Assembly (NCBI RefSeq): GCF_001879205.1
Contig: NZ_MLFK01000005.1
Location: 124,001 to 188,000 of the forward strand
DNA length: 64,000 bases
Reading direction: 5' to 3'
From: Flavobacterium johnsoniae
GTDB taxonomy: Bacteria; Bacteroidota; Bacteroidia; Flavobacteriales; Flavobacteriaceae
A program made the position numbers and the translations under genes. Under the pieces are notes generated by a model. That model ran no database searches and was not told where the DNA came from. It saw only the letters and a list, made by a program, of their open reading frames with translations. Shown piece after piece: positions 28,172-53,110 of the stretch (the first letter of the stretch is position 1; every line of letters begins with the position of its first letter).

Positions 28172-28214
28172 TGTAATAATTTTTTTAGATAACATCATAG
28201 GGGCTATTATTTTG

Positions 28215-37200: not shown

Positions 37201-40200
37201 TTTGCATCCTTAACTGTAATTGTATAAGTTCCTGCAGCTACAGTAAACGTATCTGCCGGGCTTGGTGCAACTCCTGTATTAATAGTATAAGTATATGGCG
37301 CAACTCCATCAGCTCCTGTGGCTATAATTTTAAATGAACTACCCGAAGCAGTACATTGATTGTCCACAACAGCAGTTACTGTTGGTTTAGTATCTGTTGC
37401 AATTGTAACTGGTATTGATGTTGTACATCCTTTACTGTCTTTGGCATAAATAACCCAATTTAAGTCTGCACCAGAATTAGAATTAATATTAAATACAGCT
37501 CCTGGACCATAAACCGGAGCACCAGTTGTATCATCAGCATCTAATATTGCATATTGATAAGTTGGTGTTCCTCCTGTAGCCTGTACAGTTACAGTAGAAG
37601 TTATTTTTCCGCAATTAGCATTTACATTAGAATCAATTGTTAAACCTAAAGCATTTGCAGGTTCTAAAATTTGAATTGTTCTTGTTAATGTACAATTAGT
37701 AGTCTCGTCAGTAAATACAACATCATAGATACCTACACCACGATTTAATGTAAATACCTTTTCAGTTCTACCCGTTACAGTAGGTTCGCTGTTTACTTTG
37801 TAGCTATAAGTCGAAGTAAAGTTTGAAACATTAAATCTCATTGTTCCAGTTGCATCTCCATGGCAATAAACATCATTTAATTTAGTTGCCGTAACATCGA
37901 TTGAAACTAAAGCAGGAATGTTTTTAGCAAAATCATCATAACAACCATTTGCATTTGTTACTCTGAAAACATAATTACCCGCAGTAAGATCTGTGAAAAT
38001 TCCATTTGTAGCTCCAGATGTATTACTTACTGGTCCTGAAACAATTGTATAAGTTCCAGATCCCGCACTTAATGTAATTGTAGCTGTACTGGTTGTGCTT
38101 TCAACTGGATCACAGTAAATTACAGTAGCATCAACTTTTGAAATCTTAGGTAAAACAAGCGGTGCTATTGTAATCGTTTTTTCTGCTGTTATACAGCCAT
38201 TATCATCTTTTACAGAATATTTTACTGTTTGTGTATTACCGTTATCAGAAACGATAAATATATTTGAAGTCTCATAAGAACCTCCATTGAAACTATAAGT
38301 ATAAGGAGCTTTTCCTCCAGTTGCTGTAACTGTAACGTCTTTAGATTCTTTAGTATTAGAAGTATTACATGTAAACGGATCAACACTTGCAGTAGCCGCT
38401 AATACCGGAAGCTCAGTAATTGTAACCTGTGCTGTACCTTGACAACCTATAGCATCTGTAACTACGATATCATAAATACCAGCAGCCAAACCTGTAGCTG
38501 AGGCTGATGTAGTTGAAGCAGAAACTGTTGCAGGAACAGCTGCTCCGCCTTTAGTTATAGCATAAGTATATGGAGCTTTTCCAGAGGTTGGCGTAACCAA
38601 AAGACTTCCTGTGCTTTCTCCATGACATTTTACATCTACTTTGCTTGTGTTTACTGTTAGAACAGTAGATTTTAATGTAACATTAATAATCGTAGATAAA
38701 GCTGAACAAGCCGGAGCTGGTGTTTTAGAATCGGTTACTTTAAATTGATATGTACCTGTTCCTGTTGCTAAGTATGGATTCGCAGCAGTTACAAAACCTC
38801 CACCATTATAAGAAACCTGATAACTTACAGTACCTGTACCTCCCGTTGAACTTAATTTAATTGTTGTATTTGGAGTACAAGCAGCATCTGCTTCAACTTC
38901 TGTTTTTATAGTCAGCTGTTCCGGAACTACATAAGTTGTAGTAGCAGGACATCCAAATCCATCTTTTAAATATAAAGTGTATGTACCTGGAGTAAGGCTG
39001 AAATTATTTGTAGGTACGAAATTAGTACCATTAATACTGTAACTTGGTGTTCCTACGTAAGTTCCCGTAATTAATATATCAACTGGTGAACCTGTATAAC
39101 ACTGCATAGCAGGAGTATCAATATGCGGCGGATCTTCAGTTAAAACTGAAACTGTTTTCTTAACGACACAGCCATTAGTATCTTTAACATAAACATCTAT
39201 AGTAGTTGTTAACACCGCTGTATCAACTTTTAAAGTTGTTCCATAAGCAGTAGTTGGCGCTGTAGATAGGCTTTTTGCGTAAGCATAAGAATAACCACCG
39301 CTTCCGCCAGAAAGACCTGTAATTGTTAATGTTGAAACTGTAGTAGAACAGTTAATTTTTGAAGCAGTTACAGTATAGTTGATCTCAGTAGCTGCATCAA
39401 TCGTAACTTGTGCTGTATTTGATACACAGCCTGTAGTAAGATCAGTTGCAACGAAAGAATAAGTACCGGCACCTAGACCCGTAACTTTTACTTCATTGCT
39501 TACTTTTGTTGCTGTTCCGGAGTTAGGAGTTAAAGTATAACTAAAATTAGTTGAACTTACCGTAAAAGTTGCTGTACCATTGTTAGCTCCAAAACATACT
39601 TCATTTGTTTTTTCTCCTGAAGCTGTAATTGCAGCTGCCGGATTAATAACTGTTGAGTCTGTAACAGAACATCCTCTGGCATCGGTTACTTTAAATGTAT
39701 AGGTACCAGCCGTTAAATTACTAAACGTACCAGTTGTATTAGTCCCTGTTACAGGCCCAGATGTAATGGTATAAGTTAACGGTGCAATACCTCCGGTAAC
39801 GGTTAAAGTAATACTTGTTGAAGTATTATTACATGTAATCGCAGCTGGTGCTGAGAAACTAATTGCTGTTGGCGGGTTAAATGCCGGAACTACAATAGTT
39901 TTAGTATCAATACAACCATTAGTATCTCTTACAGAGTAAGTGATTGTTTGTGCTGCATTTGTATTTGTTACTACTAATGTATTCGTATCGTTATAATTTG
40001 TATTACCTACACCAAAATTATATTTATAGTCTCCTGTACCTCCTACAGCTGAAGTCGTAATAGTTGTCGTAGTGCTGCAAGTTGTGTTTGCTGCAAAATT
40101 TGCCGAAGCTACAACTTTTGTAGGGTTGTTTAAGGTTACTTTATAAACTGGAGAAACACAGCCTTTACTGTCTTTTACCTGATATGTATATTCTTTACTG

Positions 40201-43200
40201 TTAACTGCTCCAACAAAAGCATCAAGACCTGAGAATGTTGCAGAGTTACCAAAAAGGCCTCCGTTAAAACTATATGTATAAGTTGGTCCAAAACCACCTG
40301 CTCCTACAACTGTAAATTGACCATCTGTGCCATTATTACATTTAGGATCTGTTTTGCTAACCAAAGAAGCTGTTGGATCTACTTTTGCATTTACTGCAAC
40401 AGCTGATGTTGTAAACTGACAACCTTTAGAATCTGTTACTCTAAAAATAAAACTACCTGCTGTACTTGTTTCATAAACAGCCGTCAGCATTGGATCAAAT
40501 GAAGTTCCTCCGTTAGTAGATACTTCATAAGTATATCCAGGTGTACCACCCTGAACATTCATTACCGTAATTTGAGCATTAGGCGAATTCGTACAATCTA
40601 ATGGTTTGGTTAATTTCGCTTCTGCTTTTAATTCATTTGCTATTGTTGGAATTCCAGAAACATTGGCAGTACATCCGTTAGCATCTGTAACTACAATAGT
40701 ATGTGCCCCAGGTCCAACATTTTTAAAAATATTGCTTGTTTGTCCTGTCTGACCATCTAAACTATAAGAGAATGGTGATTTTCCGTTATTTACAGTAACT
40801 ACCAAAGTAGCTTTGTTAGTTAAATCATAACATAAATCTGAGGCCGTAACATCTAATGATGCAGTAGGCGCAACTGCTCCTGTAACCGTTACTTTGTTTG
40901 AAGCCGGAGAGGCACAATTGCTGGCATCTTTTACAAAAACTTCAAAATCTCCTATTTGTCCAACATTAAGCTGGAAAGTATCTGAATCTTGAAATGGTTT
41001 TACAATAGTACCATCAGTTAAACGCAGTTCATATTTAAAACTTGGTGTTCCTCCACTGGTCACTTCTGCTTTAATAAGAGCCCCTACCGTACATGTTGGC
41101 GGTGTAACAACACTTGCTGATAATACAATTGCAAGCGGTGATTTGATTTCTTTTGTAAAAGTTGACGAACATAAACCTGCGTCGTCATTTTTAACAATAA
41201 CTTTATAAATTCCTTTCGCTAATCCGTTGATAATTACCGGAGATGTTGTTGAAGAACTCCAGTTTGCTCCGTTATCGATAGAATATTTAAAACCATTTAC
41301 AGTATCAAAATTCTCTACAGCTATAGTAATACGCCCGTCGCTTTTATCACTGCAGGTTGTATCATCAATGATTGGCTCCGAAACTTTAAACGCTTTATTG
41401 CTTTGAATAACAACATCAAATTTCTTCTCTGTGATACATGATTTAGGTAATTGACGAACCCAAATATCATCTACAAGTAAATCATTTCCACTGAATTTAT
41501 CATTATAAGAACGAATTACAAAACTAAGATTATTATAGGCCCCAGGATTTAAAGACAATTCTTTATAATTCCATATTTCATTTCTTGGCACTTTCCAAGG
41601 ATTTGCAGTATCGGTTGTTGCAACGATAATTTCTCCTGGTCCGCCTAAGTCATTAACTAATTGTATCGTTAATTCCGGATCATAATAATTGGCTCCTGTA
41701 GTACTCTTCATTAAATTTTCTGCCCATAATGAAATAATTACGGGTTGATCTACAATAACGTCTTTAATAGGTTTACTGTAAATAATACCTCCAATTCCCG
41801 CTGAACTTCCAATATTAACACATAAAAATCTTCCTAATTTATTCGTAGGTAAAGTGTGATCTTTAGCAACTACCCAAGTACCTCCAAAAGTTGTTTTGAT
41901 ACTGCTTGCAACAGCATATTTACCATCGTTTATCTGGTAATCATTGATGTTACCGCATATTGATGGAAAAGTTACCGGGTGTGGAGTCGTTTCATCTTCA
42001 AAGCAATATTTCGAGCTGATTCCTGGAGTTGTAGTATAACCTCCTGTTCCAAAATCTTCTTGTAATAAATTACTATATGTTGCAGCTGCAACAGCTTTGT
42101 ATTTTACTGAAATTTGATGAGTTCCTGTAGGAACATTATTAAATACATTACTGGTAATAGGAACATTAGGCTTGGTATCGATATAATACTCATATGTATA
42201 ATTTCCTCCTCCTGTATTGTTTACAACAATAGTAGCTTTTCCTGTTCCATCACAATTATAAACAACCTGAGGGTTTGGCTCAATAGTTGGATCTGCTGGT
42301 TTAGGATCTAAAACAATATCTGACATTGGAAAGATACAACCTTTGCTGTCTTTAACGTAAACCGTGTACTTTCCTGGATTAACATAAGCTTCATTTGAAT
42401 TTATCCAATTTACTTGGTTATCAAAACTATAAGTATATCCTGGTGTTCCACCCTGAACGTTTGTAATTCTAATTTTACCCTGGTGTTCAAATCCTGCTGG
42501 TCCGCATCCTGCTAATTCAGATACACCCGCAGAAGCTGTTAAAGCATCTGTTGGACCTGCAATTATAATTGTTCTGGCCGGATCTGTACATTCAACACCA
42601 TCATAAGTATACTTAACTACTAAAGAATGTGATCCAGCAGCTAAATTGGTAATTGGTGTAACAGAACTGAATGCTCCATTATCAACGCTGTATGAAACTG
42701 CATAACCTGAATTTGCAGGTGTAACAGTGATATTTATTTGTCCGCTGTTAGTTCCATAACAATCAACGGAGTTCGGCGTAGCCGTAACTGTTGGTTTTGG
42801 AATCTGCGTAATTTTAATTGGCGCTAATGTTACTTTACATCCTTTATCGTCTACAACCACAATGTTGTAAATTCCGTCTGTTGGTAAAGTAGCAGTAGTT
42901 ACCGGAATAATAGGGTTTGTAATATAATTTGTATTACCGTTTATGTAATATAAGTAATAAGGTGGCGGCCCCGGTCTTGGAGTACCTCCTGTAACTGTAA
43001 CTGTAATTTCACCATCGCTGCAGGCAGAAAGCGTTTTTGTAATTTTGGCTTCAGCAGTTAAACGATAATCTAGTACTTCAATTTCTTTAGTTGCGAAACA
43101 ACCATTATGATTTGTAGAAAAATCAACTTCATATACCCCCGGATCAACTCCTGTAAATGTAATGTAGTTGTTTGTTATTAATCCTGTATTTTGAATTTCA

Positions 43201-45794
43201 ACAGTACTTCCTTTTTTTCTAAGGATAAACTTGTATTCGCCAGGAACATTACTAATAGAAGCTTTAATTGTTCCCTTATCTGCAGTACAAATTGGGTGCG
43301 TAGCTTCAAGATTTGTTTTAAATTCTAGTTCCTGAACAGTAACATCAACAAAAAACGGACATGTTGAAAGTACACCATCAATTAATACCGTCTGTCTGAT
43401 TTGTACTTTATAATCTCCTTTTGCAACATTATTAAATGTACTGGACGTTTGGTAATTGGTACCATCTAAACTATAGCTGTAACCTGAATTTTCAGGTGGA
43501 TTTGTAACGGTAATTCTACCTGGAGTATTACAAATGATGTCTTGCTTTTCTGCTTTTGGATCAAGTAAATTTTGGTAAACATTAAAATAATGTGTAACCA
43601 CACATGTATTACCATAATTAATTACAAGTCTGAAAACACCCGCTCTATCTGCTGTAAAAACTGGACCATTTGCAACAGTAGTCCAGTTAGTTGCACCTTC
43701 ATAAGGACAGCTGTCCGGATTAGGTGTTTCTGCAGGAGGCACATCTTTTGTTTCCTGCCAAACGATACTTGCAGCATTAGTAATTTTAGTGTCTATGATT
43801 CTTTTATCATTTAGACCACATAAAAATATTTTTGGAAATGGCTTTTGGTCACGTACACAACCATAAGCTTCACCTGTAGCAGGATCAATATTGTCTCCTT
43901 TTATTGGACTTTTATTTGTTCCAGCCAAATAATCTGTAACAACAAATGTCTGCTTAATAGGTTTACAATTTGCCGCACCGCTGTTTTCAACAGTATAAGT
44001 TCCCGGTTTATCAATAGTAACTTGTCTGTTGTTACCTCCAAAAATAACGCCGTTAGGGTCTTTCCATACATAAGTTGTATAACCATTAGCAGCAGTTAAA
44101 ACGGCAGTACCACACAACGACACATCGCGGCTGAATAAACATTTATCAATACCTACTAAGAAATTGGTTGATGTTGGTTCGCCCACATTACATTCTGATA
44201 TTGTAGAATAACTACCCTCTCCAAATCCTCCTGGAGTTGTGTTTTTATCTCCAAAGTATTTAGAAACCGCTGTGTTTTTAATTTCGTTAGAACAAGCATC
44301 AACTAATTCATTACAATCTTTTACAACACGAACCTTAAATTTAATATTGTAGTAATCTCCACTGCCCGTTTGTTTAGAAACAACCATATGATCTGGTACT
44401 GTAAACACAAGTGTTCTGGTAGCAGCAGTATAAGCCGCAGTAATACCGGGCTCCATAAATATTATATCACTAAGACCATTAAAGATTACATTGTTTGGAA
44501 GAACGTCTGTAATAGTAAAGTTTTTAGCATTATCATTACCCTCATTTCTAAACTTCAGTTCATATCTAAGTTCCTGATCCAGACTTACAGGCTGACCGCC
44601 AATAATTTTATCGTCTTTGTCAAGTACATTCTTCCTGATTACAATTTTTGGAGCAATAATTTCTACTGATAATGCATTAAAAAACATATAGTAGGAATCC
44701 GATGAAGTACTGATTCTAAGTGTAGCATCGGTTTCATCATTTTGTATGATACTATTATTAACGTTATCAATTTTTACAACCCCTGCATCATACCCCAGCG
44801 TATTTCTACTGGATGGAGTACGGCCTCCCATAACAACATCACCATCTGTTATAGAACTATTAAAAAAGTTTGGAGTACTAGCTCCCCACCAACTTACATC
44901 AATTGGTCGAGCTAATGAAGATATAGCTCCCCACGCACCAGATTTAGCACCTTTAATTTCAAGGCCGTCTCCTGTTAATTTATTATCACCTTCAAGTGCA
45001 CTAAAAGCTAGTTTTACATTTACATCTCCAAAAGGATTTGTTCTAAAACCAGAAATTGGAATATCTAATGGTGCATCACTATTTCTAATAATACTAAAAC
45101 CGTCAAAACTTGTAATATATTTATTTGGAAGTAATGGATCTTTATAGATTACATAAATAGACCATCCGGCTGAGTTACCTCCTCTTCCGTTATCTAGTTT
45201 TCCTTCTGAACATACTAAATCACCAACAGTATAAACACCTTCTTTGGCTGCTTTAACTTCGTCTGTAATTTCTTTAAAACAGGCATATGGTTTTGATACG
45301 TATGCATTATTAACACCTGCTGCTCCTTCATCCCATAGTACCGTTCCTGTAACTGTTTTATAAGCTGCAGTAGGAGTCTTTAATTTCACCTGATTAATCT
45401 TGCTTCTATCAGAACCCTGATAAGTTCCTCCCCAATACAAAGCAGCATATACAATTTCATAACAAGTTTTACTTGCCTGAGGAATTGTTAATGTTGCAGA
45501 GCTTGAATTTAATGTTGTGGTATTGTCGTTATCAATATCAATGTATTTCATGTTGAAATTATCATTGACTTCACTCTTGCTGCCGACATCATTATAAGGA
45601 TCTTTTGGACGCTTATTATTTCCATCATCCCTATTTAAGATATTGTTTCCAATAACTAAAATATCACCATTTAAACTGGTTGTATGCCGCGTAGTAAAAC
45701 CCTTTCTTAACTGAGCGAAAGAAGTAATACTGAGCAACATGAATACAACTGCAATTAATGCTTTAAAAATAGTAGGTTTTTTCATAGTCTTCAT
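28215..45794 (-). CDS. sprB: SprB, giant gliding-motility adhesin
   Basis: A 5859-residue secreted surface protein. A signal peptide (about 1-27) precedes a unique N-terminal domain (about 28-380) and a DUF11-like region (about 385-500, ELRYELKFRNEGNDNAKNF). About 53 SprB-type modules follow, each with a GGTxPYxY strand and usually ending in VTDxxGC. A jelly-roll-like insertion at about 1243-1458 interrupts the early modules. The last 90 residues are a T9SS type B sorting domain (FSIFDRYGRVI, KWDGKYNGEDLPSGDYWY). In F. johnsoniae SprB moves along the cell surface, driven by the gliding motor. It lies 127 bases after sprD and 43 before sprF. Start at MKTMKKP; a second ATG three codons later is possible. 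At this length it is near the 6497 residues of the F. johnsoniae protein. Confidence 0.96.
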   Translation of the reverse strand: MKTMKKPTIFKALIAVVFMLLSITSFAQLRKGFTTRHTTSLNGDILVIGNNILNRDDGNNKRPKDPYNDVGSKSEVNDNFNMKYIDIDNDNTTTLNSSSATLTIPQASKTCYEIVYAALYWGGTYQGSDRSKINQVKLKTPTAAYKTVTGTVLWDEGAAGVNNAYVSKPYACFKEITDEVKAAKEGVYTVGDLVCSEGKLDNGRGGNSAGWSIYVIYKDPLLPNKYITSFDGFSIIRNSDAPLDIPISGFRTNPFGDVNVKLAFSALEGDNKLTGDGLEIKGAKSGAWGAISSLARPIDVSWWGASTPNFFNSSITDGDVVMGGRTPSSRNTLGYDAGVVKIDNVNNSIIQNDETDATLRISTSSDSYYMFFNALSVEIIAPKIVIRKNVLDKDDKIIGGQPVSLDQELRYELKFRNEGNDNAKNFTITDVLPNNVIFNGLSDIIFMEPGITAAYTAATRTLVFTVPDHMVVSKQTGSGDYYNIKFKVRVVKDCNELVDACSNEIKNTAVSKYFGDKNTTPGGFGEGSYSTISECNVGEPTSTNFLVGIDKCLFSRDVSLCGTAVLTAANGYTTYVWKDPNGVIFGGNNRQVTIDKPGTYTVENSGAANCKPIKQTFVVTDYLAGTNKSPIKGDNIDPATGEAYGCVRDQKPFPKIFLCGLNDKRIIDTKITNAASIVWQETKDVPPAETPNPDSCPYEGATNWTTVANGPVFTADRAGVFRLVINYGNTCVVTHYFNVYQNLLDPKAEKQDIICNTPGRITVTNPPENSGYSYSLDGTNYQTSSTFNNVAKGDYKVQIRQTVLIDGVLSTCPFFVDVTVQELEFKTNLEATHPICTADKGTIKASISNVPGEYKFILRKKGSTVEIQNTGLITNNYITFTGVDPGVYEVDFSTNHNGCFATKEIEVLDYRLTAEAKITKTLSACSDGEITVTVTGGTPRPGPPPYYLYYINGNTNYITNPIIPVTTATLPTDGIYNIVVVDDKGCKVTLAPIKITQIPKPTVTATPNSVDCYGTNSGQINITVTPANSGYAVSYSVDNGAFSSVTPITNLAAGSHSLVVKYTYDGVECTDPARTIIIAGPTDALTASAGVSELAGCGPAGFEHQGKIRITNVQGGTPGYTYSFDNQVNWINSNEAYVNPGKYTVYVKDSKGCIFPMSDIVLDPKPADPTIEPNPQVVYNCDGTGKATIVVNNTGGGNYTYEYYIDTKPNVPITSNVFNNVPTGTHQISVKYKAVAAATYSNLLQEDFGTGGYTTTPGISSKYCFEDETTPHPVTFPSICGNINDYQINDGKYAVASSIKTTFGGTWVVAKDHTLPTNKLGRFLCVNIGSSAGIGGIIYSKPIKDVIVDQPVIISLWAENLMKSTTGANYYDPELTIQLVNDLGGPGEIIVATTDTANPWKVPRNEIWNYKELSLNPGAYNNLSFVIRSYNDKFSGNDLLVDDIWVRQLPKSCITEKKFDVVIQSNKAFKVSEPIIDDTTCSDKSDGRITIAVENFDTVNGFKYSIDNGANWSSSTTSPVIINGLAKGIYKVIVKNDDAGLCSSTFTKEIKSPLAIVLSASVVTPPTCTVGALIKAEVTSGGTPSFKYELRLTDGTIVKPFQDSDTFQLNVGQIGDFEVFVKDASNCASPASNKVTVTGAVAPTASLDVTASDLCYDLTNKATLVVTVNNGKSPFSYSLDGQTGQTSNIFKNVGPGAHTIVVTDANGCTANVSGIPTIANELKAEAKLTKPLDCTNSPNAQITVMNVQGGTPGYTYEVSTNGGTSFDPMLTAVYETSTAGSFIFRVTDSKGCQFTTSAVAVNAKVDPTASLVSKTDPKCNNGTDGQFTVVGAGGFGPTYTYSFNGGLFGNSATFSGLDAFVGAVNSKEYTYQVKDSKGCVSPVYKVTLNNPTKVVASANFAANTTCSTTTTITTSAVGGTGDYKYNFGVGNTNYNDTNTLVVTNTNAAQTITYSVRDTNGCIDTKTIVVPAFNPPTAISFSAPAAITCNNTSTSITLTVTGGIAPLTYTITSGPVTGTNTTGTFSNLTAGTYTFKVTDARGCSVTDSTVINPAAAITASGEKTNEVCFGANNGTATFTVSSTNFSYTLTPNSGTATKVSNEVKVTGLGAGTYSFVATDLTTGCVSNTAQVTIDAATEINYTVTASKINCSTTVSTLTITGLSGGSGGYSYAYAKSLSTAPTTAYGTTLKVDTAVLTTTIDVYVKDTNGCVVKKTVSVLTEDPPHIDTPAMQCYTGSPVDILITGTYVGTPSYSINGTNFVPTNNFSLTPGTYTLYLKDGFGCPATTTYVVPEQLTIKTEVEADAACTPNTTIKLSSTGGTGTVSYQVSYNGGGFVTAANPYLATGTGTYQFKVTDSKTPAPACSALSTIINVTLKSTVLTVNTSKVDVKCHGESTGSLLVTPTSGKAPYTYAITKGGAAVPATVSASTTSASATGLAAGIYDIVVTDAIGCQGTAQVTITELPVLAATASVDPFTCNTSNTKESKDVTVTATGGKAPYTYSFNGGSYETSNIFIVSDNGNTQTVKYSVKDDNGCITAEKTITIAPLVLPKISKVDATVIYCDPVESTTSTATITLSAGSGTYTIVSGPVSNTSGATNGIFTDLTAGNYVFRVTNANGCYDDFAKNIPALVSIDVTATKLNDVYCHGDATGTMRFNVSNFTSTYSYKVNSEPTVTGRTEKVFTLNRGVGIYDVVFTDETTNCTLTRTIQILEPANALGLTIDSNVNANCGKITSTVTVQATGGTPTYQYAILDADDTTGAPVYGPGAVFNINSNSGADLNWVIYAKDSKGCTTSIPVTIATDTKPTVTAVVDNQCTASGSSFKIIATGADGVAPYTYTINTGVAPSPADTFTVAAGTYTITVKDANGCTNTTTVTVNGTMIPTAVRTKDLTCAAVSPTDATIAVSVTGGKPAFGYRVKVLPAAYTGTPIPFAGMSTSFVYTTSAAGTYQFEITDANGCTKETSTVVINPTPTVTASHTPTNPTCNAGTDGVVRLNALTGEAPFKYSFNGLPFDDAYIFGGLTAGTYNYIVRDVKGCEYADTVVLTNPAPIDGVVTQTPIICNLNTLGTFSVSVNSGGTAPYVYTLYDTNRAVLATYTENSGTVPTTPYTFSGLNFGYYYITIVDVNGCKFETPRLRIETPPDLQIDDVVDSNSCATGVDIKVITSGGQGPYRYSIFGQPETAPIASNTYVFTGLLHNTTYFLQVRDKNNCISIKEVQTPAAPSTIKITGTASTDATCSGTSNGTLTFTVQDYNPLVTQINFKILDALTLLPVAIPLGPPLTGPAGGPVTHTINNLPAGNYVLQVTEDDQTQCSTAFTFEIAQPAQPLNASITSVIPANCHNGAFVTIKTTGGTGPYYYGAAVAPAIPTLFTSTNNVLELDPNSGTNWNIVVRDAQGCEVPLGQVIPVDSSPVITLDLLNDCAAEGDFNVSVIETTAGTGTYSISVDSDNSYTSIPSGLPHTVSGLSSGSHTIYIKDANGCVDFKTININAPLDLSPAVVNLEPTCTAVNGGKITLTTTGGTGTYTYTIDAPGAVVTNNVITNLAAGSYTVTVTDGVCSATVPVKLELPIPVTFDAVVKDATCFNSSTGTITVNLLPGNTEPVYTYTIASATATPLPGGIVLVGNVFTNVPQGSYNITVTSGKGCSLTKQYNVGQPTAAVGAIVNVDPFSCNTSNSVKEAVVTIIGTGGTAPYQYNFDGGTVYYDDNIKLVDNIAGETVHYYVKDANGCLYDDTVIVAPYQKLLTINFAVVTAPVCPTNVADVKVTVTGGYTPYAKYEIISPAYFNNGTVDTFTNLDTNVNYLFRVTDANGCYIEDYYKIAPVVPIDITRTSSTNVSCNTANGIDNNGTATFTVSDYSAAGYTVAVTSTPAALAYNTPTIAANIVTVTGLVEGTYTITVTDNTTNCSKSANVVITMPAPMVIAANATKVFCNSPDSQITVTSVTGGTSPYTYAVVKAVDPAPTTFTDNIDTPFTAHTGLVDLSWNVYVKDANGCIAGPQNVLVTYNLPPVLNMPAQQCFVGAELTVDLDALSTTYNGVKSFKVDGLSVGSLAKFTADGSYVLTVIDDNGCEDSKTFVIQKQLTASATLKKDLYCTGAIAATIDVEIQGGVAPYFYEIYHNGAGSGIQVPVTTGNKFTVSPTAVGDYYFVITDSNTPACPVKTNTEKVTTPEQPEGTETHVDLKCMADTDGSLTITPSKGVGPYTFALTPAGNTTGDNSGTYTGLSAGNYSVIVTDSKGCSSAAIPVVISQPTLLTATYEILKNNSCSVETIIEVTAAGGTPRADGKYYYNFNNQGYDTKNTFTVVNNNSIQNVTYTVRDENGCETGIVTIPVAPLDPPIDLTFNASPITCISGNSSNVSITAAKGVGELTFEIVEFNGAAPAVPYAPVKVADNTIPAVFNGLPFGDYLFKVTDNNGCSYSKLLPIKDVVRIEVGHSLLADISCNALNDGKITFTVSKFAGTYTYSVTDGGAYSVGPITTSDTEIPLTGLSNGTYVISVTDVITGCPATYSVEVKRPSLVTVAEIDNIPANCTKGALVTVKGDGGSPDYTYSFVKAGDPAGTFEPEATRELNPATPSWFVYAKDLNGCISAPITVNITTDPLPAGFTASALSQCPDNDGNYVIVVNDALATGMAPYTYSIGGDFQTDKTFTVKVPGKYDLTVKDKFGCPFVFTEIVEILEPLDLKYNNVVLPTCADSDGSLSATATGGSGNYSYTIGATTITTTPADFKFLTAGKHIIVVTDTSTGCTAEVEVTLGAATPIIGFDASSTPVTCFGSTDGTITAVIDQTGANDNPPYKYSLDGGPLQDNPYFTGLAAGTYTVAVISARGCPASKPVTVGTPAIIVVPTPTVLEYGCTTDNISNHATITVNGVNGGSGKYTYDFIKGGVVKYSGPINVYTEMDYTGGTYTIIVKDDKGCIGNTQTASVLPFIAMDDVVVTVDKKITCISKEDITVTVKDKNGVNVPGTFDYTLTGTNGTVYGPITNNDGKFGGLDVGNYLITVLNTATHCIIQDVHFIFEPNVYELKAVPASDKICYGTSDGVVNLTLLDNLGNPAGPFTYTITGPFPSTAVITGPGPNTVSNLLAGQYSVVAKLDNTPECTTAAIIFTIEQPTAALIVTATKSEITCVAGNNDGVIIANATGGWPGEYLYELRSGGAVVKAYNDSPIFENLTAGNYTVYAKDSFGCETFVNASLVNPTPINVQISATPLLTCFDNEDGVVTINTVTGGSGNYTYTLHGVLVDGTITVEQSQGPAQFTGLKAGSYYVTVNDTWGCTNNSNTVIINQPTKASGTLTIVDNETCQKAPVIKLTFQGGTPPYYYSADGTTYFGPYNSFVDITLPQTVAKVEYKYFVKDANGCINAETNHIPFSPVPKLDIERLSEVDIRCQGSSTGSIIVVAKGGLGNYIYTLQNEAGVNITPAPVQTTPGTFTNLPIGKYIVKIESSDCLIFTPVIELTEPNAPLSASPVVTGVTCNGYNNGKITVNVTGGTGAYKYAIEPEFKQFFDKNVFENLKPGFYDILVQDENECYVFLKDVEVTEPDPLTAALVPNSMIPEVCVGDKNGEFAIEIQGGTAPYTASLDNEKGPFLPVTGNTVEYKGLTGGKHIVYIADNGGCPTEIEVDMGLPVLLDPKYTISYDCVNNAQSNMVVVTVDESNNPADIDYSLDGGAIQPDNVFINVPAGDHIITVRHTNGCPAEVKFNIVGYTKLELTLAEEKGVWNIITATATGGGGEYEYSIDGVNFSTENKFKIYKTGTYTITVRDKNGCTDSKDYYIKYVDVCLDNYFTPAGSTNTMWGPGCTNIYNNLTFSIFDRYGRVIAKYHYGQKWDGKYNGEDLPSGDYWYVLKLNDENDGREFVGHFTLYR
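28740..41200 (-). repeat. SprB super-repeat: about seven periods of 1.78 kb, seven modules each
   Basis: A subset of modules ends not in DxxGC but in a D-x-T/D-x-C form. These fall at regular intervals: KNDDAGLC at about 41190, TDLTTGC 39435, TDETTNC 37700, EDDQTQC 35873, TDNTTNC 34093, TDVITGC 32298 and LDNTPEC 30518, with VRHTNGC in phase at 28740. Spacings are about 1755, 1735, 1827, 1780, 1795, 1780 and 1778 bases. By hand count exactly seven module ends fall in each period. Other markers, such as the W-containing VYVKD/VYAKD module, keep the same phase. Confidence 0.8.
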
Positions 45795-45921: not shown

Positions 45922-48900
45922 TTAATTCTCCACTTTTACGATCGCCATTTTCCCGTTATATGACTTAGATCCTTTTGCTTCAAGTGCCTTTGTAGCCTCT
46001 TGTAAACCATCGAATTTCTCGTAATAGATGTAATACTTACTTGTTGTAATGTTGTAGAAGAAATTAATGTTTGTAAGTCCGGCTGCAACAGCTTTCGTTA
46101 AGAATTGATCTCTTTTTTCAACACTATTATGTACCGCAAGAATCATGTAATAACCACTTTCAGAGTTTTTAATATTCTTAATAATCTGCATGTTTGACTG
46201 ATCTTCACCAAAATCAAAATCACTTGCTGTTAGCGGCGTACTGCTTAATTTGGTTGTCTCTTTTATTCGTTTAAGAGCGGCAACGTCCTGCGCATATCTT
46301 CCCTGATCATTTTCATAAGCTGCACGTTTAATTCTACGTTTTTTCTCAATTTCCGTTTCCGTTTTGATACGCTCTAAATCGGCTAATAAAGCTGCACCCT
46401 CCTGTTCCATTTTTAACTGCGCTGCTTTTAATTGATTTATCTTTTCAAGATAAGCTTTGTTTAAAGCATCGTTTTTATTTGGAACTTTTTTAAGCCTTTC
46501 GTTATATAAATTTGTCAGCTTGGCAATTTCATCTTTCTGGATTCTGCTTGCATCAGCAAGTTGTCCTTTTAAAGCCTCTAACTGGCTGTTTTCTGCAGCA
46601 ACACTTTTAAATGGTTTTGGCTCTCTATAAATTCCTTTTTCACTTAAATCATTCTCTTCTTTTAAGTCGTTCAAGTCTTTTTGTTTATTTGCTACAGTAG
46701 ATTTAAACTGATCTAATAAATCATTTTGTGCTTTACTTGTACCTTCAATAGACTGCGTTAAACTTTCAATTGCTTTTGCTGTATCGTCTTTTGCGGCTGC
46801 TGCTCTTGCTGCTGCTTCGGCATCTGCCTTAGCTTTTTCTGCAGCTAATCTTGCCTGACGTTCTTCTTCCTCTCTTAATAATCTTGTTTCTTCTTCAGCT
46901 TTTAGTTTTTCTGTTGCTTCGGCATCCGCTTTTGCTTTTGCATCGGCCAATAACTTAGCTTGTAAAGCCACCATATCTGCTTTTGCTTTAGCATCTGCTG
47001 CCAGCTTAGCTTCAAGAGCTTCTGCATCGGCTTTAGCTTTAGCATCAGCTGCTAGTTTTGCTTGAAGTGCTTCTGCATCTGCCTTAGCTTTTGCGTCAGC
47101 TGCCAGCTTAGCCTGACGTGCTTCTTCTGCTTCTCTTAATTGTTTCGCTTCAGCATCCGCTTTTGCTTTCGCTGTAGCTTCGGCATCTGCTTTTACTCTT
47201 GCATCAGCAATTAATTTAGCTTGAAGCGCTTCCATATCAGCTTTGGCTTTCGCATCAGCAGCAAGTCTAGCTTGTTCTGCCTCTGCATCCGCTTTGGCTT
47301 TAGCATCTGCTGCTAATTTAGCCTGGCGTGCTTCTTCATCAGCTTTGGCTTTTGCTTCTGCTGCTTGTTTAGCCTGAAGGGCTTCAGCATCAGCTTTGGC
47401 TTTGGCATCAGCAGCTAATTTTGCTTGTAGTGCTTCTGCATCGGCTTTTGCTTTTGCATCGGCTGCTAATTTGGCCTGGCGCGCCTCTTCTTCTGCTTTA
47501 ATTTTTGCTTCTTCTGCTTGTTTTATTTTTAATGCTTCTGCGTCGGCTTTAGCTCTTGCATCGGCAACCAATTTTGCTTGTAATGCTTCAGCATCTGCTT
47601 TTGCTTTTGCTTCGGCATCTAACTTAGCCTGTGCCTCTGCTGCTGCTTTTGCTTTTGCTTCTGCCGCTAACCTTGCTTGTAATGCATCTGAGTCGGCTTT
47701 TGCTTTGGCATCAGCTGCTAATTTTTCTTTTAGAGCTGCCTCTTCTGCTGCTTTTGCTTTAGCATCTGCTGCTAATTTTGCTTTGTTTGCAGCATCAATA
47801 GACGCTTTAGTTTTTGCTTCAGAAGCTGCTTTTGCTTTTGCTTCTGCCGCTAACCTTGCTTGTAATGCATCTGAGTCGGCTTTTGCTTTGGCATCAGCTG
47901 CTAATATAGACTGCATGTCTGCTGCTTCTGCTTTTGCTTTTGCATCAGCTTTACGTTTAGCTTCAGCTGCATCAGCTTTGGCTTGTGCATCGGCTGCTAA
48001 TTTTACTCTTAATGCTTCAGCGTCAACTTTTGCTTTTTCAGCTGCGGCAAGTCTTGCCAGTCTTGCTGTTTCTGCATCAGCCTTAACCTTTTCTGCAGCT
48101 GCTAATCTTGCTTTAGCTGCGGCTTCAGCGTCAGCTTTTGCCTTATCTGCTGCTAATTGCGCTGCTGTTTTTTGTGGTGCTGCAGGAGCTGGGTTAGCCG
48201 CAGTTTGTTTTGCTTTGGCTTCTGCATCAGCTTTTGCCTTAGCATCTGCTGCTAATTTTGCTTTGTTTGCAGCATCAATAGACGCTTTAGTTTTTGCTTC
48301 AGAAGCTGCTTTTGCTTTTGCTTCTGCCGCTAACCTTGCTTGTAATGCATCTGAGTCGGCTTTTGCTTTGGCATCAGCTGCTAATTTTTCTTTTAGAGCT
48401 GCCTCTTCTGCTGCTTTTGCTTTAGCATCTGCTGCTAATTTTGCTTTGTTTGCAGCATCAATAGACGCTTTAGTTTTTGCTTCAGAAGCTGCTTTTGCTT
48501 TTGCTTCTGCCGCTAACCTTGCTTGTAATGCATCTGAGTCGGCTTTTGCTTTGGCATCAGCTGCCAGCTTAGCCTGACGTGCTTCTTCTGCTTGTCTTGC
48601 CTGAAGTGCTTCTGCATCGGCTTTTGCTTTTGCGTCAGCTGCAAGTTTTGCCTGAAGAGCTTCAGCGTCTGCTTTGGCTTTAGCATCAGCTGCCAATTTA
48701 GCCTGACGGGCTTCTTCTGCTTGTCTTGCCTGAAGAGCTTCTGCATCGGCTTTTGCTTTCGCATCAGCAGCCAGTTTAGCTTGAAGTGCTTCTGCATCTG
48801 CCTTAGCTTTTGCGTCAGCTGCCAGCTTAGCCTGACGTGCTTCTTCTGCTTGTCTTGCCTGAAGAGCCTCTGCATCTGCTTTCGCTTTTGCATCAGCAGC

Positions 48901-51660
48901 CAGTTTTGCTTGAAGTGCTTCCGCATCGGCTTTTGCTTTGGCATCAGCTGCCAGCTTAGCCTGACGTGCTTCTTCTGCTTCTCTTAATTGTTTCGCTTCA
49001 GCATCCGCTTTTGCTTTCGCTGTAGCTTCGGCATCTGCTTTTACTCTTGCATCAGCAATTAATTTAGCTTGAAGCGCTTCCATATCAGCTTTGGCTTTCG
49101 CATCAGCAGCAAGTCTAGCTTGTTCTGCCTCTGCATCCGCTTTGGCTTTAGCATCTGCTGCTAATTTAGCCTGGCGTGCTTCTTCATCAGCTTTGGCTTT
49201 TGCTTCTGCTGCTTGTTTAGCCTGAAGGGCTTCAGCATCAGCTTTGGCTTTGGCATCAGCAGCTAATTTTGCTTGTAGTGCTTCTGCATCGGCTTTTGCT
49301 TTTGCATCGGCTGCTAATTTGGCCTGGCGCGCCTCTTCTTCTGCTTTAATTTTTGCTTCTTCTGCTTGTTTTATTTTTAATGCTTCTGCGTCGGCTTTAG
49401 CTCTTGCATCGGCAACCAATTTTGCTTGTAATGCTTCAGCATCTGCTTTTGCTTTTGCTTCGGCATCTAACTTAGCCTGTGCCTCTGCTGCTGCTTTTGC
49501 TTTTGCTTCTTCTGCTTGTTTTATTTTTAATGCTTCTGCGTCCGCTTTTGCTTTAGCCTCCGCTGCAATTATAGCTTGTCTTGCTTCGGCATCAGCTTTT
49601 GCTTTGGCATCAGCTGCTAATTTTTCTTTTAGAGCTGCCTCTTCTGCTGCTTTTGCTTTAGCATCTGCTGCTAATTTTGCTTTGTTTGCAGCATCAATAG
49701 ACGCTTTAGTTTTTGCTTCAGAAGCTGCTTTTGCTTTTGCTTCTGCCGCTAACCTTGCTTGTAATGCATCTGAGTCGGCTTTTGCTTTGGCATCAGCTGC
49801 TAATATAGACTGCATGTCTGCTGCTTCTGCTTTTGCTTTTGCATCAGCTTTACGTTTAGCTTCAGCTGCATCAGCTTTGGCTTGTGCATCGGCTGCTAAT
49901 TTTACTCTTAATGCTTCAGCGTCAACTTTTGCTTTTTCAGCTGCGGCAAGTCTTGCCAGTCTTGCTGTTTCTGCATCAGCCTTAACCTTTTCTGCAGCTG
50001 CTAATCTTGCTTTAGCTGCGGCTTCAGCGTCAGCTTTTGCCTTATCTGCTGCTAATTGCGCTGCTGTTTTTTGTGGTGCTGCAGGAGCTGGGTTAGCCGC
50101 AGTTTGTTTTGCTTTGGCTTCTGCATCAGCTTTTGCCTTAGCATCTGCTGCTAATTTTATTTTCAATGCTTCAGCATCTGCTTTTGCCTTATCTGCCACT
50201 AATTGCGCCTGTGTCTTTTGTGGAGCCGCGCCAGCTGCTGCCGGTTTATTTGCAATCGCTTGCGCTCTTGTTGCTGCGGCTGCATCAACTCTTGCTTTAT
50301 TATCTGCCGCTAATTTGATTCTGCGTGCTTCCGCATCGGCTCTTGCTTTATCAGCTGCCAATTGAACGGCTGTTTTTTGTGTTGTCGCAACTGCTCTGTT
50401 TGCTGTTGCAGTCTGCGCTCTTGCTGCAGCTGCGGCATCAGCTTTTGCCTTAGCATCGGCTGCTAATTTTATTTTAATAGCTTCGGCATCTGCTTTAGCT
50501 TTATTGTCTGCTTCTAATTTTGCTTTGGCTGCAGCTTCGGCATCTGCCCTAACTTTTTCAGCCGCCGCTAATCTTGCTTGTTTTGCTTCTGCATCTGCTT
50601 TTGCTTTTGCTTCTGCGGCAAGTCTGTTCTTTTCAGCAATCTCAGTTCTGTTAACTTGAGTTGCTTCAGATTTTGGTTTAGCCTTAACTGGCTTTGGTTT
50701 TGAAGGATCGATTAATGAACCTTCTTCGTCATCTCCGTAATAGTAATTTCTACTTTTGAATTTGTATGCAATTGCAAATTCATGAGAACCTCCCATGTTT
50801 GTAAAATTGCCCATTCCTCTTTCGTAGTTGTATTCGATTGCAATGCTTGGTGAAATATTAATACCCAAACCTGCAGAAACTCCGTATAATGTATTGTAAC
50901 CTGCCTGTGCCCAAACTCCTTGCTGTAATGCCAGCATAGCAAGTCCGGAAATCACTGTTTTATCCTTTTTAAGTTCTGTTTTTACAATTCCGGAGAATTT
51001 ACTTCTGTCAAAAAAACCATAGCTGTCCAGATAGCCTGTGTACATAGCATGCAGTTCGATTGCTCTTTCAGGATCGTCTTTTACCATTCCTGAACCAAAA
51101 TTGTAAAGCACTAAATTGTTAACCGATACTCCAAAATCAAGAAAAGCGGTTCCGTAATTAATACCTGGATTAACAGTAAGTAAAGTATTTGACGGATAAT
51201 CTCCGTTTAAAATATCTGTATCGTCTGTTATAATTTTTCCTTTATCTAAACCACTTTGGTAAACACCAACGTTTAAACCAAAAGTTAAATTACTGTCTTG
51301 TTCTAAAACGATATTATGAGCGAAATTGGCAATACCGCCAAAAACGGTCATTAATCCATAATTTTGTTGAAATAAGCCAACCGCAAAAGCTTCATTCTCT
51401 CTAAAACGACCTGAATAATTTGCTAAATAAGTTTGTGGTGCGTTGTCAAACTGAACCCATTGCCTTTTATTATAAAAACTGGCATACGGATTAGATTCGC
51501 GAACGAAACTAAAAGTTGGGTTAATTAAATATCTATTAAACTTTAAAGAATTTCTTATAGGTAATGAAAACGAAACAACTCCATTCTCATTTTGATCCTG
51601 AGAATAGAGTGCATTTGAAAAACCGTAAAATAAAGTTATGAATAGTAAAATTTTCTTCAT
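45922..51660 (-). CDS. sprD: SprD, barrel plus giant helical repeat plus SPOR-like domain
   Basis: A 1912-residue protein. The signal peptide ends at NALYSQ (about 20). Residues 21-310 form a PorP/SprF-like barrel (SLPIRNSLKFNRYLINPTF, closing HEFAIAYKFKSRNYYYG). A Pro/Lys linker leads to residues 337-1622, almost entirely Ala, Lys, Asp, Glu, Leu and Gln in a 17-residue unit of the type LQAKLAADAKAKADAEA, a TolA-like helix. Residues 1625-1830 are a predicted coiled coil and 1838-1912 a SPOR-like domain (SGYYMILAVHNSVEKRDQF). By position it is SprD, which in F. johnsoniae supports SprB-dependent spreading. It starts 1 base after sprC, so translation is coupled. The helix holds large near-identical duplications. 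Confidence 0.9.
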   Translation of the reverse strand: MKKILLFITLFYGFSNALYSQDQNENGVVSFSLPIRNSLKFNRYLINPTFSFVRESNPYASFYNKRQWVQFDNAPQTYLANYSGRFRENEAFAVGLFQQNYGLMTVFGGIANFAHNIVLEQDSNLTFGLNVGVYQSGLDKGKIITDDTDILNGDYPSNTLLTVNPGINYGTAFLDFGVSVNNLVLYNFGSGMVKDDPERAIELHAMYTGYLDSYGFFDRSKFSGIVKTELKKDKTVISGLAMLALQQGVWAQAGYNTLYGVSAGLGINISPSIAIEYNYERGMGNFTNMGGSHEFAIAYKFKSRNYYYGDDEEGSLIDPSKPKPVKAKPKSEATQVNRTEIAEKNRLAAEAKAKADAEAKQARLAAAEKVRADAEAAAKAKLEADNKAKADAEAIKIKLAADAKAKADAAAAARAQTATANRAVATTQKTAVQLAADKARADAEARRIKLAADNKARVDAAAATRAQAIANKPAAAGAAPQKTQAQLVADKAKADAEALKIKLAADAKAKADAEAKAKQTAANPAPAAPQKTAAQLAADKAKADAEAAAKARLAAAEKVKADAETARLARLAAAEKAKVDAEALRVKLAADAQAKADAAEAKRKADAKAKAEAADMQSILAADAKAKADSDALQARLAAEAKAKAASEAKTKASIDAANKAKLAADAKAKAAEEAALKEKLAADAKAKADAEARQAIIAAEAKAKADAEALKIKQAEEAKAKAAAEAQAKLDAEAKAKADAEALQAKLVADARAKADAEALKIKQAEEAKIKAEEEARQAKLAADAKAKADAEALQAKLAADAKAKADAEALQAKQAAEAKAKADEEARQAKLAADAKAKADAEAEQARLAADAKAKADMEALQAKLIADARVKADAEATAKAKADAEAKQLREAEEARQAKLAADAKAKADAEALQAKLAADAKAKADAEALQARQAEEARQAKLAADAKAKADAEALQAKLAADAKAKADAEALQARQAEEARQAKLAADAKAKADAEALQAKLAADAKAKADAEALQARQAEEARQAKLAADAKAKADSDALQARLAAEAKAKAASEAKTKASIDAANKAKLAADAKAKAAEEAALKEKLAADAKAKADSDALQARLAAEAKAKAASEAKTKASIDAANKAKLAADAKAKADAEAKAKQTAANPAPAAPQKTAAQLAADKAKADAEAAAKARLAAAEKVKADAETARLARLAAAEKAKVDAEALRVKLAADAQAKADAAEAKRKADAKAKAEAADMQSILAADAKAKADSDALQARLAAEAKAKAASEAKTKASIDAANKAKLAADAKAKAAEEAALKEKLAADAKAKADSDALQARLAAEAKAKAAAEAQAKLDAEAKAKADAEALQAKLVADARAKADAEALKIKQAEEAKIKAEEEARQAKLAADAKAKADAEALQAKLAADAKAKADAEALQAKQAAEAKAKADEEARQAKLAADAKAKADAEAEQARLAADAKAKADMEALQAKLIADARVKADAEATAKAKADAEAKQLREAEEARQAKLAADAKAKADAEALQAKLAADAKAKADAEALEAKLAADAKAKADMVALQAKLLADAKAKADAEATEKLKAEEETRLLREEEERQARLAAEKAKADAEAAARAAAAKDDTAKAIESLTQSIEGTSKAQNDLLDQFKSTVANKQKDLNDLKEENDLSEKGIYREPKPFKSVAAENSQLEALKGQLADASRIQKDEIAKLTNLYNERLKKVPNKNDALNKAYLEKINQLKAAQLKMEQEGAALLADLERIKTETEIEKKRRIKRAAYENDQGRYAQDVAALKRIKETTKLSSTPLTASDFDFGEDQSNMQIIKNIKNSESGYYMILAVHNSVEKRDQFLTKAVAAGLTNINFFYNITTSKYYIYYEKFDGLQEATKALEAKGSKSYNGKMAIVKVEN
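47097..48259 (-). repeat. SprD internal duplication, copy 1
   Basis: Bases 47097-47657 are identical as far as I compared to 48945-49505 (offset 1848), and 47695-48259 to 49594-50158 (offset 1899). The offset jumps by 51 bp, one repeat unit, in the short divergent stretch between. Both offsets are multiples of three, so the frame is kept. Confidence 0.88.
48945..50158 (-). repeat. SprD internal duplication, copy 2
   Basis: This is the partner of the block at 47097-48259. A further 120-bp sub-block (around CAGCATCAATAGACGC) occurs four times, near 47790, 48270, 48455 and 49690. Near-identity at third codon positions indicates recent duplication or ongoing gene conversion. Confidence 0.88.
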
Positions 51661-51661
51661 A

Positions 51662-53110
51662 TTATTTAATCACAGTTATTGATCCTTTTTTTTCACCTGT
51701 GTCTGATTGAATGACATAATAATATACTGGATTTACATTTTTAAAATCTATTGCGGTCTGAGGCCAATCGCCCTGATAGTTGACTACATCCAGAACCTTT
51801 TCTCCGTTTGAACTAAGAATTATTACTTTGGTATTTGCGTTTTTATATTCATCTGGTATGTTCCAATATGGATTTAAACCACTTAGTTTAATAATATTTT
51901 GAATTACAGATGACGGCTGAGAAGGCCCCGTTACTCTAAAATTAAACTCCTGAGAAGAGATACATCCGGTTGCCTGAGAAATTTTTACTCTATAATTACC
52001 TGGTACGGCTACCAAGTACGAATTTGATGCTGCACCGCTTATAGCATTTCCGTTTAAAAACCATTCAAAAGTCGGATTTGCGGCATCTGTAGTAACTGAT
52101 ACATTTAAAGTTTCTCCTTCGTTTATAGAAGTTGTTTCTGCCACATCTATACTAGCTGTAAAACCATTACTTTGTAAGTTAATAGACCCTGAAGCTTTAC
52201 AACCTCCAAAATCAACTTCTACGTTATAAACACCGCTTTCTTTTGCGTTAATACTGCGGGTTGTTCCTATTTGTTTTCCATCTTTTGTCCAAACATAACT
52301 GTTACCGCTTGTTGCAGTTAAAACTGTTCCATCACCGTTTGAACAAAAAGGGTTTCCTAAACTTGAATCGATTGTAACTGCAGAGCCTCCTCCTGAAGAT
52401 GAAACTGTTACACGATTCGAATAAGATCCCGATGTACAAGTACCGTAATTTGTTTCAACATAATAAACACCTGGTGCAGTAACGCTGTAAGTTGGCCCTG
52501 ATGCACCCGCCATAAGAGTTGGAAGTGCAGAAACGCCATTGTCTTTGTACCAGTTGTATGTTAGAGAAGAAAATTTCAAAGGAGAATCATTAACAGGATC
52601 TGCTGAATCCGGGTCAATTTTTAATAAATAACTTCCTCCTGCACAAAATGCAGCCGTACCATTAAAATTATTTATGGTATACTGCCTGTCATGTGCTTTA
52701 TAATAAACCGGGAAAGCATTCTTTAAACCAAAAGAAACAAATTTACCGCTGGAAAAACCTGTAGTAGAAACTCTCAGACTATAAGTATCTGAACCAACAA
52801 GATTAGTAGGAACCGAAAACTTTACAGTTCTTTGAGTACCAGTATCGCTAACAGGAGTAGTAGCTGCCGTTACAATGGTTGTAAAATTGTTAGTTGAAAG
52901 CTCAACCACAAAAACCGTTTCGGCAGGAAATCCTGTATAGGTAAATGTTGCCGTATATTCATTACCGTCAATACCCGCACAAATCCTATCAAAAGGCAGT
53001 ACCTGCGGACTGATAGTTTTTGTTTGGGCATAACAGTTTGATTTAGTAAAAATAATTATACTAAATAAAAGCAATATTTTGGTAAAAGATAAAGTAGTTT
53101 TTTGAATCAT
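51662..53110 (-). CDS. sprC: SprC, secreted gliding-motility protein with Ig/PKD-like domains
   Basis: A 482-residue exported protein: signal IIFTKSNCYAQ, then Ig/PKD-like beta domains (FDRICAGIDGNEYTATFTYTG; FSSLTYNWYKDNGVS; TATSGNSYVWTKDGKQIG; ANPTFEWFLNGNAISGA). A C-terminal domain of about 85 residues (LNPYWNIPDEYKNANTKV, ILSSNGEKVLDV, YYYVIQSDTGEKKGSITVIK) resembles a T9SS type B sorting domain. Such proteins are carried to the cell surface by T9SS. By position, size and fold it is SprC, whose loss in F. johnsoniae blocks spreading but not SprB secretion. Its ATG overlaps the stop of the 137-aa gene by 4 bases (ATGA) and it ends 1 base before sprD. Confidence 0.85.
   Translation of the reverse strand: MIQKTTLSFTKILLLFSIIIFTKSNCYAQTKTISPQVLPFDRICAGIDGNEYTATFTYTGFPAETVFVVELSTNNFTTIVTAATTPVSDTGTQRTVKFSVPTNLVGSDTYSLRVSTTGFSSGKFVSFGLKNAFPVYYKAHDRQYTINNFNGTAAFCAGGSYLLKIDPDSADPVNDSPLKFSSLTYNWYKDNGVSALPTLMAGASGPTYSVTAPGVYYVETNYGTCTSGSYSNRVTVSSSGGGSAVTIDSSLGNPFCSNGDGTVLTATSGNSYVWTKDGKQIGTTRSINAKESGVYNVEVDFGGCKASGSINLQSNGFTASIDVAETTSINEGETLNVSVTTDAANPTFEWFLNGNAISGAASNSYLVAVPGNYRVKISQATGCISSQEFNFRVTGPSQPSSVIQNIIKLSGLNPYWNIPDEYKNANTKVIILSSNGEKVLDVVNYQGDWPQTAIDFKNVNPVYYYVIQSDTGEKKGSITVIK

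Follow-up and report, generated by a model that had tools for sequence, protein, structure and literature searches.

The sprD gene, on the reverse strand of a 64,000-nucleotide stretch of Flavobacterium johnsoniae DNA (the window; NCBI RefSeq assembly GCF_001879205.1, contig NZ_MLFK01000005.1, positions 124,001 to 188,000), raises the question of why a barrel of the PorP family should be prolonged by a very long array of alanine and charged residues that ends in a small C-terminal head. The sprC and sprD genes are gliding genes, and no mechanism for their products was found stated in the literature consulted, which is cited here by PMC number. Our preferred answer, to which we give a probability of around 0.5, is that SprD would be a PorP-family carrier and surface anchor of SprC, docked on the cell wall through a leash (the array) and the head. 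The barrel would lie in the outer membrane carrying SprC, and the C-terminal extension would enter the periplasm and run in the plane of the envelope. There, a mostly monomeric charged alpha-helix would serve as a semi-flexible leash of great length, which may work as a constant-force spring and ends in a conserved coil and a head of SPOR fold that would dock on the wall, directly or via a wall-bound partner. The SprC-SprD complex would be kept in this way on a fixed, long-reach tether, whereas the SprB-SprF complex would be bonded to the moving track.

Rhodes and co-workers are said to have described in 2011 an sprCDBF operon in F. johnsoniae, and the gene and the operon order are identical in the window, where sprC lies upstream of sprD, and the gene for a SprB-like adhesin, followed by sprF, downstream (Table 1). 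The open reading frame (ORF) is identified as sprD because of these flanking genes and of its matches to published primers: of the four primers with which sprD was deleted in PMC9870892, two match the window in their annealing parts, one at positions 45933-45954 (one mismatch) and the other at 53662-53686 (two mismatches). Among named relatives, Flavobacterium sp. HSC-32F16 comes closest in the tail (98% identity), the window's own record having possibly been left out.

The PorP/SprF-like barrel that had been recognized in the first-pass annotation of the window was confirmed by two profile hidden Markov models (HMMs), PF11751 matching residues 37-299 (E 9.5e-43, 147.1 bits against a curated cut-off of 22.3) and TIGR03519 residues 1-301 (E 1.2e-54, 185.7 bits against 90.55). 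The PorP_SprF barrel was also present in all 20 SprD proteins sampled from 19 other genera, which were hand-picked from the 84 matches that 299 genomes gave at E <= 7.2e-63 (two of these matches belong to the window's genus). In the outer membrane proteome of a lolA1 mutant SprD was found at 0.05 of the wild-type level (PMC11885536), a drop that did not satisfy the criteria of its authors in both lol mutants, and that is consistent with an outer membrane place of SprD. As for the presumed cargo, sprD adjoins the gene of a substrate with a type-B C-terminal domain, SprC. CHU_C was matched by the eight SprC orthologues at E <= 0.01 (best 1.2e-14) and TIGR04131 by three of them (best 7.7e-8); the SprC of the window, with an E of 6.6e-4 for CHU_C (under the cut-off), is not among these three.

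The carriers of this family in the source genome were then compared. It holds nine intact PorP-family genes and a tenth, broken match. A PorE-like gene lies directly downstream of six of the nine, always with an OmpA domain, and the type-B ends upstream of these six PorP-PorE sets were judged by eye and not by HMM. A C-x-C tail was found in two of the nine, SprF and the protein L007. Only SprD has neither PorE neighbour nor C-x-C tail, but a fused head. With SprF it has in common the PorP-family barrel and, in our reading, a type-B adhesin as cargo; the functional periplasmic tail of SprF, however, is short and has twin cysteines, one of them bonded to GldK (PMC12635249), whereas SprD is cysteine-free in the window and has no cysteine past residue 17 in any of the sequences checked. 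A disulphide link to GldK like that of SprF was rejected on this ground. Since the tail of the homologous SprF is periplasmic, that of SprD would be so as well. With the PorP-PorE-PG1035 set of Porphyromonas gingivalis (PMC9143113) SprD shares the barrel and, in our proposal, a type-B cargo and a cell-wall anchor, which in P. gingivalis is a separate OmpA-domain lipoprotein and in SprD would be fused, of SPOR fold and borne on a long helix.

Other arrangements of the same parts were noticed in these searches. In the source genome, on contig 10 (L154:1642-2628), the second PorP-family protein with a C-x-C tail (CNC), after SprF, has no PorE seen directly downstream and is possibly another track-linked carrier. 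Relatives have short PorP-SPOR proteins, and their SPOR domain is Pfam-positive in the four examined (L020, L021, L118 and L119). Two of them (L118:1495-2844, reverse strand, and L119:1483-2847, forward strand) have proline-rich linkers and follow directly genes for proteins that look type-B by eye, a short counterpart of SprC-SprD. A PorP barrel, TSP3 repeats and an OmpA domain are fused in L125:1477-3276, from an organism of the same class; this protein would be another cis-anchored carrier.

The array, for which about 1285 residues of Ala/Lys/Asp/Glu repeat had been estimated, a figure close to the measured extent (residues about 323-1653), contains 41% Ala, 16% Lys, 20% Lys plus Arg and 18% Asp plus Glu. 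It had been drawn as one straight helix of about 190 nm, and this does not stand, as three proline or proline/glycine breaks interrupt it (Table 1) and the longest run free of both residues measures 627 residues (530-1156), which with 0.15 nm for each residue comes to around 94 nm. Within this run, opposite charges at positions i,i+4 were counted 140 times against 46 expected, and like charges twice against 46. The same was found in all 73 Flavobacterium sequences, with observed to expected ratios of 2.1-3.7 (median 3.0) for opposite charges and a median of 0.06 for like charges; the expectation comes from composition shuffles, which are blind to the repetitiveness of the array, so the z-scores are inflated. 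The pattern resembles that of single alpha-helices (PMC5347031); the monomeric state in our proposal is an inference.

Several observations weigh against this reading of the helix. Outside Flavobacterium, in the 20 spacers sampled, the charges follow this pattern less strongly, it being absent in L204 (8 vs 9 expected), with no depletion of like charges in L192. Besides, a modest periodicity of alanine was detected at 3.62-3.64 residues (power 5.0 and 4.0), and a tendency to form oligomers, dimers among them, is described for Ala-rich charged helices obtained by design (PMC5347031), so the array could instead be an Ala-coil bundle or oligomer, a thicker and shorter fibre between several SprD barrels. 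Despite its 41% Ala, we regard this arrangement as unlikely, having in mind that the two long stretches have little hydrophobic power (0.0-2.1) at periods of exactly 3.5, 3.6 and 3.67 residues and that a standard coiled coil would not be expected to give the main hydrophobic peaks observed, at 4.34 and 3.38. A coiled coil within the array was set aside tentatively: no hydrophobic peak appears at 3.5 or 3.67, but oligomers may form.

If monomeric, the helix would be neither straight nor stiff at this scale. For single alpha-helices, the persistence length is given as around 15 nm (PMC5347031), a value from the helices of that paper and not from SprD, with which a contour of 94 nm gives a root-mean-square span of around 49 nm in three dimensions and 63 nm in two, and one of 200 nm a span of around 74 and 101 nm, respectively. 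A straight strut is thus not expected, and the geometric part of the first proposal, in which the periplasm is too narrow for a helix of this length to be upright in it, is maintained. Natural single alpha-helices typically have from 40 to around 200 residues (PMC5347031), and single helices behave as constant-force springs (PMC4183817); the SprD helix, if our reading is right, would be far beyond that range, and a natural charged helix of hundreds of residues in a bacterial periplasm would be a useful case for helix mechanics. The leash of INCENP (PMC4571873) is also a charged single alpha-helix bridging two functional domains, from which SprD differs in being far longer and much richer in alanine.

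The coiled coil that had been noticed after the array corresponds to a conserved helical neck (Table 1), which together with the head forms a tail of 265 residues showing 32-88% identity between the window and eight other Flavobacterium tails, and which was conserved in the 20 SprD proteins sampled from other genera. The head had been called SPOR-like, and this holds for its fold and not for the Pfam HMM, since SPOR (PF05036) gave no match with the head of the window even at E 10. By profile-profile alignment (hhalign), the head matched the Pfam-positive PorP-SPOR proteins with a probability of 96.8 and an E of 2.8e-10 over 78 columns, and the 20 heads from other genera matched them at E 7.5e-9, while the best of 50 column shuffles gave an E of 0.0066, with a probability of at most 5.8. 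AlphaFold2 modelled the head alone with a predicted local distance difference test (pLDDT) of 81.3, a predicted template modelling score (pTM) of 0.69 and the order beta-alpha-beta-beta-alpha-beta. The top three solved structures found by Foldseek with this model were the SPOR domains of CwlC, DedD and DamX (probabilities 0.99, 0.99 and 0.89), and the VIA comparison gave Z values of 6.4 for DedD, 6.4 for DamX, 6.2 for RlpA, 6.1 for RlpA with glycan and 5.2 for CwlC, the next row having 4.1. These alignments and models together support that the SprD C-terminus adopts a SPOR fold.

Other data from these searches are less favorable. Pfam SPOR was matched by one of nine Flavobacterium heads, weakly (E 0.041), and by none of the 20 heads from other genera at E 1, and unrelated Pfam families score equally or better (DUF6461 in 8 of the 20, best 0.0035). 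In the model of the 265-residue tail (pTM 0.45) the last strand is unresolved, with a pLDDT below 50, and the Foldseek E-values for the SPOR structures were 0.04-0.17. The first row of the VIA comparison was 6ozd, with a Z of 8.3, ahead of the SPOR structures, whose Z values are middling by themselves. When all 265 residues of the tail were used, the fold comparison gave nothing at E <= 0.001 and no SPOR domain among the 50 rows listed, and a search of solved structures with the sequence profile of the head gave no match at E 10. In the searched literature, with subscription papers and preprints outside it, no description of a SPOR fold and single-helix pattern of SprD was found, nor any text that names SprD and SPOR (as whole words) along with Flavobacterium. 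None was found there either that joins PorP and type IX secretion to a SPOR domain (PorP with SPOR alone could be missed), and the only match for SPOR domain, gliding and Bacteroid- concerns monoderm cell surfaces.

Whether such a head could hold the wall was considered at the residue level. The fold is common to DedD, DamX, CwlC and RlpA, but the SprD head does not have the glycan-contacting glutamine and perhaps (by eye) not the basic patch. In RlpA, Q270 contacts denuded glycan, and the patch residues differ among SPOR domains (PMC6895207); at the position of Q270, located by eye, all 86 sequences read have Ile or Val, and on beta-3 a Tyr or Phe stands where two arginines of the basic patch seem to be located (by eye). 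The binding of peptidoglycan by the SPOR-like end, a condition in the annotation, finds no support in these residues, which count against our reading in its direct form: the binding of the head to the wall is a proposal, whose target could be glycan or protein. The same glutamine is absent from the four Pfam-positive PorP-SPOR relatives, for which reason its loss may be a trait of the PorP-SPOR group; by eye, the best Pfam SPOR protein of the source genome does not have it either.

A special case of our reading, compatible with it, is that the head is no glycan binder but a protein-docking module that pairs with the coil and SPOR end of a four-LysM wall protein, which would in turn grip the wall. 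A four-LysM protein encoded beside guaA (named by eye; the gene is at L024:475-2373, contig 11, in the source genome) ends in the same coil and SPOR module. The C-terminal module was found in seven LysM proteins at 26-31% identity (six with E 6.8e-16 to 1.6e-9 and one with 5.0e-5), with four LysM stretches in each of the two LysM-SPOR proteins examined. SprD (E <= 4.3e-60) was present in 83 of 249 Flavobacterium genomes and an intact LysM-SPOR gene in 67, of which 66 also hold SprD, as raw counts that ignore phylogeny. These tallies were compiled by hand, 19 genomes with only weak matches not being counted as having SprD. This partnership is also favored by the absence of the canonical glutamine from the SprD head. 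Against an obligatory one, 17 of the 83 SprD genomes have no intact LysM-SPOR copy (in two of them, G262 and G172, the copy is broken), although divergent copies may have been missed. We consider the pairing with the LysM protein rather doubtful.

The length of the array was studied in 80 named loci. The 67 with a SprD over 800 amino acids were used for the length statistics, and the 13 broken ones were left out; analyses A3 and A4 used 49 and 37 of the 80, and two entries (G006 and G015) that duplicate L075 and L083 were kept in the alanine-rule count (75 rows) and dropped from the charge-pattern count (73). SprD of the window, with 1912 amino acids, is the longest measured. The 67 full-length orthologues, its nearest relatives, have 1220-1819 (median 1513), more distant copies of the same genus are as short as 901, and the 20 from other genera have 645-999, with spacers of 70-424 residues, rough in L203 and L206, whose starts were probably set too late. 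Array length thus varies from species to species, from a spacer of around 70 residues to one of around 1330, with barrel and head retained throughout, because of which a leash, and not a ruler, is the best reading of the array. A molecular ruler finds no support either in SprD proteins with near-identical tails, whose length drifts: among 31 pairs with a tail identity of at least 97% none was equal in length, and the median difference was 52 residues. Differences that are multiples of 17 were found in just 13 of 90 pairs, and this unit was not used. The orthologues of other genera being short, yet with barrel and tail, the ancestral SprD is likely to have been shorter, and the array to have expanded in the relatives of F. 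johnsoniae.

Two stretches of the array in the window, of 567 and 564 bp, are repeated exactly within it (Table 1); the longest such repeat among the 67 full-length named orthologues has 221 nt. They reflect either recent duplication or an assembly error, and the array length in this assembly has to be taken with caution. Assemblies are weak in this region, since in 13 of the 80 named loci the array meets a contig end (7) or contains a lost frame or Ns (6).

It could be argued that most of the length is a by-product of repeat expansion and that a spacer of around 100 residues would suffice, an idea that does not exclude a tether and that we hold as a minority possibility. The rapid drift in length, the exact duplication in the window and the short spacers of other genera and of some copies of the same genus fit it well. 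On the other side, the i,i+4 pattern is kept in the 73 Flavobacterium sequences, and none of the 67 full-length copies from the 80 nearest named loci is shorter than 1220 amino acids. Moreover, just one pair of the 67 is equal in length with an identity of 80% or more, the genes of F. anhuiense and F. sharifuzzamanii, and for it the ratios of nonsynonymous to synonymous substitution rates (dN/dS) were 0.007 for the barrel, 0.036 for the array, 0.028 for the coil and 0.030 for the head, so that in this pair the array is under strong purifying selection at the protein level.

The first-pass annotation had also proposed that SprD could form a strut, long and tangential, or an element of the track, linked to the gliding baseplate. 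The helix must indeed lie tangentially, and a supporting role in the function of SprB is ascribed to SprC and SprD (PMC5879114). However, multirails were seen in each spr mutant and in no gld mutant (PMC9870892, section 9), presumably including the sprD deletion strain of that work; because of this, the track can probably be built without SprD. A recent model makes the track of GldJ, GldK and GldN with SprF disulphide-linked to GldK (PMC12635249). A track component should be present wherever GldJ is, and GldJ was over its cut-off in 247 of the 249 Flavobacterium genomes against 83 for SprD, which shows SprD to be an accessory. Having in mind also that SprD lacks the cysteines that mark a mobile carrier of the SprF type (the C-x-C tail) and that its length is not conserved, the track or baseplate element was rejected as the main reading and is judged very improbable.

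Concerning mobility, in work on P. gingivalis and F. johnsoniae the type-B proteins linked to PorE have been proposed or seen to be static, with an anchor on the wall, and those of the gliding machinery, like SprB on its track, mobile (PMC9143113; PMC12618676). The names SprC and SprD are absent from the main text of PMC12618676, and no data on movement of either were found in the literature consulted, a point to be set against the static behavior that the leash would impose. If the leash is right, a wall-tethered carrier in the operon of a track-bound carrier would mean that gliding uses a fixed and a moving partner, and the mobile or static rule for type-B carriers would gain a third, cis-anchored class. 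As a tentative extension, for which we claim clearly less than for the carrier itself, SprD could define a third, "leashed" class of adhesin carriers of the type IX secretion system (T9SS), bonded neither to the track nor to a PorE anchor, with a built-in single-alpha-helix spring of around 45-200 nm contour in Flavobacterium and a SPOR-fold head, maybe on the LysM-SPOR partner, fixing SprC at long range in support of SprB-driven gliding.

Table 1. Coordinates in the window of sprD, its parts and its neighbours.
Feature	Position	Strand	Description
sprD	45922..51660	-	single ORF, 1912 aa, no cysteine
PorP/SprF outer membrane barrel	50764..51552	-	residues 37-299, PF11751 and TIGR03519
Ala/Lys/Asp/Glu array	46720..50694	-	residues about 323-1647 (to 1653 by Ala-content rule)
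Proline/glycine break 1	50221..50244	-	residues 473-480
Proline break 2	50074..50091	-	residues 524-529
Proline break 3	48175..48192	-	residues 1157-1162, in second copy of 564-bp repeat
Exact 567-bp repeat	copy 1 48944..49510, copy 2 47096-47662	-	offset 1848
Exact 564-bp repeat	copy 1 49595..50158, copy 2 47696-48259	-	offset 1899
Conserved helical (coiled-coil-like) neck	46180..46719	-	residues 1648-1827; helices in model, block pLDDT up to 94
C-terminal head, predicted SPOR fold	45925..46179	-	residues 1828-1912, around 85 residues
sprC	51662..53110	-	482 aa, type-B T9SS substrate, Ig-like domains; presumed SprD cargo
SprB-like giant adhesin	28215..45794	-	5859 aa; from position and type-B-like C-terminus by eye
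sprF	27197..28267	-	PorP-family carrier, PF11751 E 1e-68; CPC twin-cysteine tail at 27221-27229

Further ORFs were noticed around these genes. Two long antisense ORFs over the array (47396-48577 and 49244-50365, forward strand) were taken as artefacts and not as genes, the repeat being poor in stop codons. An ORF of 137 amino acids at 53107-53520 (reverse strand), with no family over the cut-off, has 4 nt in common with the start of sprC. Upstream of sprC, at 53619-54911 (reverse strand), lies an ORF of 430 amino acids with no Pfam family over the cut-off, which is a possible further member of the operon; counterparts of 424-458 amino acids, with ends similar by eye, were found in all seven other fetched loci that reach it (L029-L032 and L034-L036).

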